Assembly: GCF_003150675.1 (NCBI RefSeq)
Contig: NZ_QGGB01000008.1
Coordinates: 248,001-312,000, forward strand
Direction of reading: 5' to 3'
From: Rhodohalobacter mucosus
Lineage (GTDB): Bacteria > Bacteroidota > Rhodothermia > Balneolales > Balneolaceae
DNA: 64,000 nt
Part shown: positions 17,408 through 20,962 of the stretch, piece by piece
Layout: each line of letters opens with the position of its first letter
Numbering within the stretch: position 1 is the first letter of the stretch
Notes under the pieces: model-generated
The model's input: only the letters and a program-made list of their open reading frames with translations
Database searches by the model: none
Told to the model about the DNA's origin: nothing
Program-made: the position numbers and the translations under genes

Positions 17408-19555
17408 TTATTTAAGAAGCAGCATTTTTTCAAACTTCACTTCACTGTCTGTTGCAAGCCTGTAAAAGTAGACTCCCGATGAGAGTGCAGAAGCGTTGTA
17501 GGGTATTTCGTAATATCCCACGGTAAGCTGGTCGTCAAACACGGTGGCGACATGAGCGCCGGCAGCGTTGAAGACGTCAATTTTGACTCTGGATGTTTCG
17601 GGTACAACAAGAGGTATGCGTGTTTGATTGTTAAACGGATTCGGATAGTTGTTCCCCAGCAGTGTTTCGGCCTCTGTGAAGAGAAACTCAATTTCGACGG
17701 GATTTCCGACAACCAGATCTTCAGCTACAACAGAATATTGAATAGTCTCTTCACGATCGTGCGTTATCGAAAAACTGGCTTCTCCGTTACTGTCGGTTAT
17801 ATTGTTGACAGCTTCGACATTTGAAAAACCATCCTGTTCAATAAGCACCTCCACTCCGCTTACCGGTTCAAGCCGGCTGTCACGAAGGGTAACATCGATC
17901 CGGCTTTCCTGCTCTCCCGTTGCCAGCACACGATTTCTTTCTACGGAAACAAGAGAAGAAACAGAGCTTATATCCACGGTTGTAAACGATATATTATCAC
18001 CGTATGACGTACCACCTGTGTTTCTAGCATAAGCCCTGGCATAGTATGTAGTATTTCCATTTAGGCCTGTAAGATCTACGGTAAATGTTGAACTGCTCAG
18101 CAGAAATTCCTGGCACGTATCAAGTACCGTAGGATCAGGGCTGGTATCCCAGCATATTCCGCGGCCTGTAATACTGCTGCCGCCAATATCGACAATGGTA
18201 CCCGTACCTACGGCTTTTCCGGCGGTGATGTCAAAAATAGCATCCGTCTGTACAACGGGCGGATCCGAAGCTACCCTGTATTGGGATATGGCATGCTTGA
18301 TTTCTCTCATACTCCGGGCATTGTCAGCCGGTGCGCCATTGGCAATGTACGATCCGGTTGCCACTCCCTGAAAGGTGACATCCGGGTTTGAAAAAATCTG
18401 TACGCCCGCAGCACCCTCGTTATAGGTCATAACGGAAACATACTCCTGGTTATCCTGGCCTGTCCATCTCCAACCGGTTGAGTAGGGAAACAGGCCGCCT
18501 GTTCCACCGGCTGCATTTTGGTTTTGAAGGCGGCTGTGTGCATTCCCCATGTTATGTCCCATCTCATGTGCATGAGTCGTCCCTGCAGCCTGCTGTACAC
18601 GGGTGAGAGAAAAACCGAATCGGTCATCACCGTTCGTGCTGGTGTTTAACCAGCCTAACCCGCCAACCGCATCAGTAAAAATAAAAAGGGCAACAAGATC
18701 CGCTTTAAATTCATCTCTCCAGTCGTGTACTTCATCCATATATCCCGAATACTGTGTACCAAGACCGTTAAACTGAGGAGAAGTGGTCAGCCTTCTGAGG
18801 TCTGTACTTGGGCTGTCACTCTCCTGATAATCTACTTCAGAAGCATAAACCAGGCGAAATTCAATACCAATATTGGAGTTATCTGCAGAATTTTGTGCAA
18901 CGGCCATCGATTGATTGACAATATTCTCTATACCGCCGTTAATGTCCGCCCATGATTTTGCACGGGGCGTGTACACGATCAGGACATCGATTACAGCTTC
19001 ATCATCCACACCCTGTTCCTGCAGATCGAAACCCATCGCTTTGTTGGTCGACTGAACCGTATGATCTTCATGTATTCCGCAGGCAATCTCATCTTTTTCG
19101 TGCGGATCGACCTGAATAAAGGAGTGCTGTCTTTCCTGTTCAGAGTAGCGAATTTCGAAAAATTCATGATCCGTAAAATTATGGATAGATGAGAGAACCC
19201 TGTCATCGGAAAAGGAAAGGGTAAAGGAGTTCAACTTGTCACCATTTAGATAGGCTGTTACAGACCAGTCTCCGTTGTAGTGTTCCATTACCCTTCTTAC
19301 TGTTACCTGATGGGTATCTTCATCAAAATCGGTTATCTCAAATGATCTGATTTGTTCGCGGCGCAGCTGGTCGAGAAGTTCCTGATTCAGATCAATAGAC
19401 ATCCGGCTGAGCTCGGATTTTGATTTAGAAGCCCATTGTGTTTGAACGGTGTTTGTGCTGTTAAATAGCTGAAGGTCACTAACTTGAGCAAACAAACTCT
19501 CTGTTAGGAAAAACAACAGGGCAAGAGTAAGAAGGCTTGTAACATTTACTTTCAT
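17408..19555 (-). CDS. Secreted reprolysin-like metallopeptidase with T9SS sorting domain
   Basis: A 715-residue exported protease. Signal peptide at residues 1-23; propeptide-like region to about 180; zinc-metzincin domain about 185-425 with HEMGHNMGNAH at 330-340 (HExxHxxGxxH) and a Met-turn in SVMTYNE. Then come a fibronectin-like segment (TYYARAYARNTGG), a Big-1-like Ig segment (VTLRDSRLEPVSGVEVLI), and a C-terminal type A sorting domain (NYPNPFNNQTRI, SSGVYFYRL, KMLLLK), the signal for type IX export and surface attachment or release. It stands alone; no T9SS machinery genes are in the window. Confidence 0.93.
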   Translation of the reverse strand: MKVNVTSLLTLALLFFLTESLFAQVSDLQLFNSTNTVQTQWASKSKSELSRMSIDLNQELLDQLRREQIRSFEITDFDEDTHQVTVRRVMEHYNGDWSVTAYLNGDKLNSFTLSFSDDRVLSSIHNFTDHEFFEIRYSEQERQHSFIQVDPHEKDEIACGIHEDHTVQSTNKAMGFDLQEQGVDDEAVIDVLIVYTPRAKSWADINGGIENIVNQSMAVAQNSADNSNIGIEFRLVYASEVDYQESDSPSTDLRRLTTSPQFNGLGTQYSGYMDEVHDWRDEFKADLVALFIFTDAVGGLGWLNTSTNGDDRFGFSLTRVQQAAGTTHAHEMGHNMGNAHSRLQNQNAAGGTGGLFPYSTGWRWTGQDNQEYVSVMTYNEGAAGVQIFSNPDVTFQGVATGSYIANGAPADNARSMREIKHAISQYRVASDPPVVQTDAIFDITAGKAVGTGTIVDIGGSSITGRGICWDTSPDPTVLDTCQEFLLSSSTFTVDLTGLNGNTTYYARAYARNTGGTSYGDNISFTTVDISSVSSLVSVERNRVLATGEQESRIDVTLRDSRLEPVSGVEVLIEQDGFSNVEAVNNITDSNGEASFSITHDREETIQYSVVAEDLVVGNPVEIEFLFTEAETLLGNNYPNPFNNQTRIPLVVPETSRVKIDVFNAAGAHVATVFDDQLTVGYYEIPYNASALSSGVYFYRLATDSEVKFEKMLLLK

Positions 19556-19609: not shown

Positions 19610-20962
19610 TCAGTTATTTAATTTTAACTTTTCCATACGGTGCTGAAATTGTTTGATTGCGTAATCTAAAAACCACTCCTCTTCAAGCCCGAATGGAACA
19701 GTATCGTAACGGTCAAATATCTCGTGAATAATATTGGTTGCATCGGTCAGGAGTTCATCAAGGAGGTTCTCAAAAGACGGATGAAGATCCTCGTTTTCTT
19801 CAAGAATCCTGTTAATCAACCAAAGTCCGTAAGCAATATGTCTCGATTCGTCTTGCTTGAGTTTCAAAACTCCTTCACGAAGGCCCGGCATTAAATCATG
19901 ATCGTCCAGCATTTTGTAATAGGCTTCATATCCTGTTTCTGCCAGTGTACCCTCCACAATCATATTATAGGTTGCGGAAGCCCTCAGCTGCACGGCGGGT
20001 GAACGATCATGATCAAGGGCCGATAATGCCTGAGGCAATTTTTCATAAAACAGTTTTTTATAAAACGGACCGTGAAACCGATCTGCATCCGGTTGGGTTT
20101 TTATGACCTCCATAACGAATCTCGCAAAGAATTCAGTATGTTTGGCTTCTTCCCACAAAAATGATGTGATGTAGATCTCTTCTTCAATGCGTCCTTCTTT
20201 TGCAATTACGCGTATCAGCGGAAGCAGATCTAACGTGACGGCTTCCTCTCCGGCCAGAAAAAGTGAAGAGAGATGCATAATAATGGTTTGTTCATCCGCA
20301 CTCATGTTTTTCCAGTCTGATCGATCCTTTTCAAAAGATATATCTGAAGGATTCCACACACCATAAATTTTGGCCTTCTGAAAAAGCTTCATTGGAAAGG
20401 ACTCAAAATCCAGGCCCTTTGTTACGGTTGAAAAGCGTTCATGTGGTTCGGATGTCGGGCGGTTGTTGCCAATATTGGATTCCTGCTCAGATACGTTTGG
20501 GATTTGGTCACCGCTATTGGAAGGAGCTGCGTCAAGGAGGGCCTTTGCAGCGCCTGCGTTTGACACAAGCAGGGTTTTGCTCCCTTTTTCCAGTTTGAGC
20601 TTGCCGTTTAACAAAAACAGGGTTGGATTCTTCCCCGATTGGAGCAGTTGCAGCCAGCTCTTTTCTGATGCAGACAGAACCACGCAATTTGTTTCGATGT
20701 CATCAGAAACTGCATATCTGAGTTCCGTACATGTACCGGACCTCAGGTCAAGATAAATTCCAACGCTGTTCTTGCTTTTGAAAAAGTCGGGTAACGGCTT
20801 AAAAAGAAGTATAAGAGGAATATTCCATGCAGCTGCCTGTTTACTGTATGATTCACTTTTATTTATGGATTTTCTCCATTCCTGAAGCCATGAGTCGGAA
20901 AATAAATGGCCTTCATCTTTATTTTGTTGTCCTTTTATAAAATACTCTTTAAACGGATTCAT
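19610..20962 (-). CDS. R2-like ligand-binding oxidase (R2lox) fused to an N-terminal SCP2-like domain
   Basis: 450 residues. Residues about 171-450 are a ferritin-like Mn/Fe R2lox core. With an offset of 170 relative to the characterised Geobacillus enzyme (numbering from memory), every key residue fits without a gap: ligands Glu239, Glu272, His275, Glu337, Glu372, His375, and the Val242/Tyr332 ether cross-link pair. The extra 170 residues resemble a sterol-carrier-type SCP2 domain (residues about 45-145, e.g. WLQLLQSGKNPTLFLLNGKL), then a Ser/Asn/Pro-rich linker. R2lox proteins bind a fatty-acid-like ligand and activate O2; an attached lipid carrier would make sense, but that is inference. 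Ribonucleotide reductase R2 is unlikely because no R1 gene is nearby and the Val/Tyr pair is R2lox-specific. Confidence 0.88.
   Translation of the reverse strand: MNPFKEYFIKGQQNKDEGHLFSDSWLQEWRKSINKSESYSKQAAAWNIPLILLFKPLPDFFKSKNSVGIYLDLRSGTCTELRYAVSDDIETNCVVLSASEKSWLQLLQSGKNPTLFLLNGKLKLEKGSKTLLVSNAGAAKALLDAAPSNSGDQIPNVSEQESNIGNNRPTSEPHERFSTVTKGLDFESFPMKLFQKAKIYGVWNPSDISFEKDRSDWKNMSADEQTIIMHLSSLFLAGEEAVTLDLLPLIRVIAKEGRIEEEIYITSFLWEEAKHTEFFARFVMEVIKTQPDADRFHGPFYKKLFYEKLPQALSALDHDRSPAVQLRASATYNMIVEGTLAETGYEAYYKMLDDHDLMPGLREGVLKLKQDESRHIAYGLWLINRILEENEDLHPSFENLLDELLTDATNIIHEIFDRYDTVPFGLEEEWFLDYAIKQFQHRMEKLKLNN

Follow-up and report, generated by a model that had tools for sequence, protein, structure and literature searches.

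R2-like ligand-binding oxidases (R2lox) have been studied for their Mn/Fe cofactor and their cross-link, while their physiological function has been stated to be unidentified (PMC6399176). A long-chain fatty acid has been reported in a tunnel that is lined by A171, a position at which R2lox conserves an alanine and RNR R2 a phenylalanine (PMC6399176). For GkR2loxI, the published account gives the residues E69, V72, E102, H105, Y162, E167, E202 and H205, claims an alkane hydroxylase on the basis of C10-C22 alkanes degraded in crude lysate, and places the gene in the cluster GK2769-GK2782 beside alcohol/aldehyde dehydrogenase and beta-oxidation genes, with no SCP2 reported in the parts consulted (PMC10867098). 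The alkane-degradation assay lends the claim weak support, and a metal-ligand mutant was only slightly less active (PMC10867098). With respect to the carrier, the closest described protein is Thermus thermophilus TT1886 (1wfr, 2cx7), and an enzyme-borne form is found in the alkylsulfatases SdsA1 (2cfu) and Pisa1 (2yhe/4axh), which act on long alkyl chains and possess a domain of the SCP2 fold. The catalytic domain of these alkylsulfatases is of the metallo-beta-lactamase type and is unrelated to R2lox.

In the window, a stretch of 64,000 nucleotides from Rhodohalobacter mucosus (contig NZ_QGGB01000008.1), both elements are present in one protein (Table 1). The gene occupies its interval as a single open reading frame, has an ATG start codon with a GGAG motif about 8 bases upstream, and encodes the sole NCBIfam NF006202 match in the 3.9 Mb genome. 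The AlphaFold2 model of the full protein reaches a mean pLDDT of 87.6 and a pTM of 0.82. Disorder is predicted for residues 1-15 and again within the linker, which is mostly disordered and variable in length across the alignment. An assembly artefact as the source of the fusion is ruled out, since many assemblies contain the same fusion as a single uninterrupted reading frame.

Table 1. Location of the SCP2-R2lox fusion gene and of its encoded segments in the window.
Feature	Position	Strand	Remarks
SCP2-R2lox fusion gene (P0001)	19610..20962	minus	450 aa, stop codon included
SCP2-fold domain, TT1886/2cx7 type, residues 19-146	20525..20908	minus	phmmer, profile, modelled fold
Linker, residues 147-172	20447..20524	minus	pLDDT <50 at 150-168; alignment
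Predicted R2lox domain, residues 173-450	19613..20446	minus	E239, V242, E272, H275, Y332, E337, A341, E372, H375

The C-terminal segment is predicted, from its sequence and its modelled fold, to be a complete R2lox. It scores 362.6 bits against NF006202 with a cutoff of 315, and the match is therefore not due to chance. Six metal ligands (two His and four Glu: E239, E272, H275, E337, E372 and H375) are present, as are V242 and Y332, the two residues of the ether cross-link pair as read from the sequence. The original prediction had placed these eight residues at R2lox spacing with an offset of 170, and indeed all eight letters match the GkR2loxI positions + 170; the phmmer alignment to the Geobacillus R2lox structure runs without gaps over the whole eight-residue stretch, and none of the eight columns varies among 36 aligned R2lox-domain sequences. 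In addition, A341 corresponds to the tunnel alanine A171 of GkR2loxI, whose exchange for phenylalanine keeps the fatty acid out of the active site of that enzyme. The model matches R2lox crystal structures with Z scores of 33.9-37.5, compared to at most 28.5 for RNR R2 structures. Fold, metal ligands, Val/Tyr pair and tunnel alanine are thus the same as in the known R2lox proteins GkR2loxI (4hr0) and those of M. tuberculosis (3ee4/4ac8) and S. acidocaldarius (6qrz/7qbk). Whereas the solved R2lox chains matched comprise 316-330 amino acids and have no SCP2 domain, here an SCP2 domain and a linker precede the oxidase.

The resemblance to SCP2 that had been proposed for the N-terminal 170 residues is real, but the domain extends over residues 19-146 and not over all 170. 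Pfam PF02036 gives the fusion protein 18.9-20.6 bits, just under the gathering cutoff of 21.3, which is exceeded by several stand-alone homologues. With phmmer the N-terminal region matches 1wfr and 2cx7 at E values from 3e-13 (1wfr) to 7e-13, and a profile of relatives reaches about 2e-34 against the same two structures. Modelled alone (pLDDT 87.8), the domain folds as SCP2, with a Z score of 18.0 to 2cx7 (rmsd 2.3, 127 of 130 residues, 30% identity) and of 15.2 to 1wfr. A chance resemblance is ruled out by the sequence profile and the fold match together. The N-terminus belongs to the same SCP2 subfamily as TT1886; the Thermus protein consists of this single domain, whereas in the window an oxidase is attached to it. 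The next structure matches score no higher than Z 9.2 and comprise the SCP2-like domains of alkylsulfatases, SCP2 of animals and yeast, UbiJ and Eis. SdsA1 and Pisa1 score about 8-9 and carry their SCP2-like domain at the C-terminus, in contrast to the N-terminal position in the fusion protein.

We propose, with a probability of roughly 0.6, that the protein is a two-domain oxidase in which SCP2 supplies the R2lox tunnel with a long-chain alkyl compound that is then hydroxylated. The SCP2-type domain would bind a long-chain hydrophobic compound (an alkane, a fatty acid or a similar alkyl chain), taking it up from the membrane or the cytosol, and would use the flexible linker to bring it to the hydrophobic R2lox tunnel, where the Mn/Fe centre would activate O2 and probably hydroxylate the alkyl compound. 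In other bacteria, alcohol and aldehyde dehydrogenases whose genes neighbour that of R2lox may carry out the next steps. We infer three points from the published tunnel fatty acid (PMC6399176), the alkane assay (PMC10867098) and the linkage between SCP2 and R2lox: the role of SCP2 as carrier of the R2lox substrate, the long-chain alkyl nature of this substrate, and hydroxylation as the reaction. To call the identity of the ligand unknown, as in the original prediction, was too strong in view of that same fatty acid and of the alkane hydroxylase claim made in the second paper. The substrate question becomes directly testable, since any compound that SCP2 binds is a candidate R2lox substrate.

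The same two elements are also encoded by separate neighbouring genes in other phyla, in part within alcohol/aldehyde dehydrogenase operons, which adds evidence to the idea of substrate delivery put forward in the original prediction. In two Bacteroidetes/Ignavibacteriales MAGs (L030 and L031) the SCP2 gene and the start of R2lox share one base. A search of 200 Bacilli genomes yielded 13 TT1886-type SCP2 copies in 11 genomes; 12 of these copies have an R2lox-family gene no more than 3 kb away, and for 11 of the 12 the distance stays within 1.2 kb; the nominal binomial p of about 1e-27 is a guide only, as the genomes are not independent and the profile includes R2lox-linked SCP2. A clear R2lox is encoded in 10 of the 11 SCP2 genomes versus 36 of 200 overall (p 1e-7), a linkage biased by an SCP2 profile that was built partly from R2lox-linked proteins. 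This bias is answered, though only partly, by the Pfam scan, which is independent of R2lox and finds PF02036 in 31 of the 36 R2lox genomes of the Bacilli versus 56 of 200 overall (p 4e-16). A canonical PF02036 protein directly adjoins R2lox in three further genomes (G073, G089 and G113), and SCP2-like proteins are encoded near R2lox on plasmids of Rhodococcus and Mycobacterium, with acyl-CoA ligase and alcohol dehydrogenase as neighbours. The two-gene linkage recurs across phyla and with different SCP2 subfamilies.

Divergent R2lox-like proteins are encoded at L171:2899-4387, L172:6112-7595 and L209:4072-5458 (the last from Actinobacteria); each is directly followed by a distant SCP2 gene, which overlaps in L172 and L209. 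The L171 and L172 proteins stay below the NCBIfam cutoffs. Pairs of this kind make up two of the 12 close Bacilli cases, and a second R2lox-SCP2 lineage is possible. In one Bacilli cluster (L178:5535-9201), two R2lox genes enclose a single SCP2 gene together with a gene for alcohol dehydrogenase.

For a putative turnover of alkane to alcohol, support comes from the gene context of relatives. Genes for both alcohol and aldehyde dehydrogenase are found within 5 kb of 18 of 36 R2lox genes (Bacilli and Bacillota loci read), and at two loci (L213 and L214) R2lox is clustered with acyl-CoA ligase, acyl-CoA dehydrogenases and a canonical SCP2. The order SCP2, alcohol dehydrogenase, R2lox, aldehyde dehydrogenase occurs on one strand at eight Bacilli loci. 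Here the SCP2 gene adjoins the dehydrogenase gene and not R2lox and, given that SCP2 also lies beside acyl-CoA ligase in other clusters, the carrier might instead act as product acceptor or exporter: R2lox would oxidise a membrane-derived chain and SCP2 would move the product to the dehydrogenases or the acyl-CoA ligase. We consider this unlikely, as SCP2 is joined to the oxidase, and not to a dehydrogenase, both in the fusion and in the gene pairs that overlap, and the direction of transfer is not readable from gene order alone.

Extending the carrier-fed oxidase beyond the fused form, R2lox and TT1886-type SCP2 may constitute a widespread two-part, carrier-fed soluble Mn/Fe alkane/fatty-acid hydroxylase, encoded as a fusion or by separate genes, a generalisation that we offer tentatively and at somewhat less than even odds. 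If true, the question of what this R2lox branch does physiologically would be settled. A fused carrier, together with the same carrier in dehydrogenase operons of distant bacteria, is an independent pointer to a hydrophobic substrate that is mobile, and it provides a named partner protein.

Further genes accompany R2lox in other bacteria. In Bacilli, R2lox is often succeeded by a UbiB-type ABC1 kinase (L034, L173-L181, L189, L213 and L214), and a conserved protein of about 110-185 amino acids (p133) commonly accompanies it, one copy of which was scanned and gave no Pfam match. On the Rhodococcus plasmid pRB11 (L136:5459-9029), genes for an alcohol dehydrogenase, an FAD-dependent oxidoreductase and a ferredoxin directly precede R2lox, and it is plausible that the ferredoxin and the FAD reductase serve as R2lox electron donors.

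The SCP2 carrier is neither exclusive to R2lox nor obligatory for it. Of 52 sampled Gemmatimonadota genomes that have a TT1886-type SCP2 (G061 aside), 39 have no R2lox, which rules out exclusivity and indicates that this SCP2 type is not dedicated to R2lox. Many R2lox genes have no TT1886-type SCP2 nearby, so that R2lox can work without it; the Bacilli group beside an iron-type alcohol dehydrogenase, with the order R2lox, aldehyde dehydrogenase, iron-type alcohol dehydrogenase as in the GkR2loxI comparison, has none nearby either. SCP2 genes without R2lox are also seen at L164-L166. At L182 and L183, a TT1886-type SCP2 is located on another contig than the R2lox of the same genome, beside genes that by eye resemble acyl-CoA ligase and methylmalonyl-CoA mutase.

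The many Gemmatimonadota with SCP2 but no R2lox would fit a regulatory lipid sensor, or a membrane or partner docking module, that passes no lipid to the active site. SCP2-like domains are also part of enzymes such as Eis acetyltransferases, in which, to our knowledge, they have no carrier role, and no fixed channel is evident in the fusion protein because its linker is disordered. We nevertheless hold such a function to be quite improbable: apart from TT1886, the structurally closest group is formed by the SCP2-like domains of the alkylsulfatases, with their long-alkyl-chain substrates, and the recurrence of the R2lox linkage with different SCP2 subfamilies argues in the same direction.

A fusion that was common and already described would have told against the original prediction. 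The fusion is widespread, yet in the R2lox literature searched it is not described, and R2lox together with SCP2 or a sterol carrier was not found there, most subscription papers lying outside the search. The nearest relatives found belong to Balneolaceae/Balneolales, and 32 of the 59 relatives searched match the fusion protein, a few of them partially or weakly. The fusion is found at about 25 Balneolales loci and is conserved throughout this order; it is also present in KSB1 (L022), in two Calditrichota-group genomes (L025 and G892) and in six Gemmatimonadota-group genomes (G061, G744, G724, G773, G786 and G735), the Calditrichota and Gemmatimonadota group names being taken from the phylum to which the named locus at the centre of each search belongs. 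For a plasmid-borne fusion, no plasmid place covering 80% of the query was found. A single clade of fusions was not rejected on the first set (p-AU 0.44; SCP2 tree 0.21), but it was rejected once Gemmatimonadota were added (p-AU 0.014), in a test with a group partly known beforehand and with long branches present. Consequently, the trees make several fusions, or a fusion followed by separation, likely. That the fusion is a mere by-product of neighbouring genes joining without functional interplay, both serving the same fat-oxidation pathway, seems highly improbable: although loss of one stop codon could fuse the already overlapping genes of L030 and L031, and R2lox and SCP2 share lipid-metabolism clusters, the fusion has been kept throughout Balneolales outside any metabolic operon, and the rejected single clade suggests repeated fusion or later separation.

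In Balneolaceae the fusion gene has mnmG/rsmG and a gene for a metalloprotease as its immediate neighbours. With regard to a possible operon of the fusion and metalloprotease genes, the region contains about as many promoter- and terminator-like sites as shuffled sequences do. The gene directly downstream of the fusion gene (17408-19555, minus strand) is separated from it by a gap of 54 bp, and its homologue at L006 contains an M12-type metalloprotease, fibronectin type III and C-terminal secretion-sorting domains. The same succession of fusion gene and metalloprotease gene is seen at about a dozen loci of Balneolaceae.
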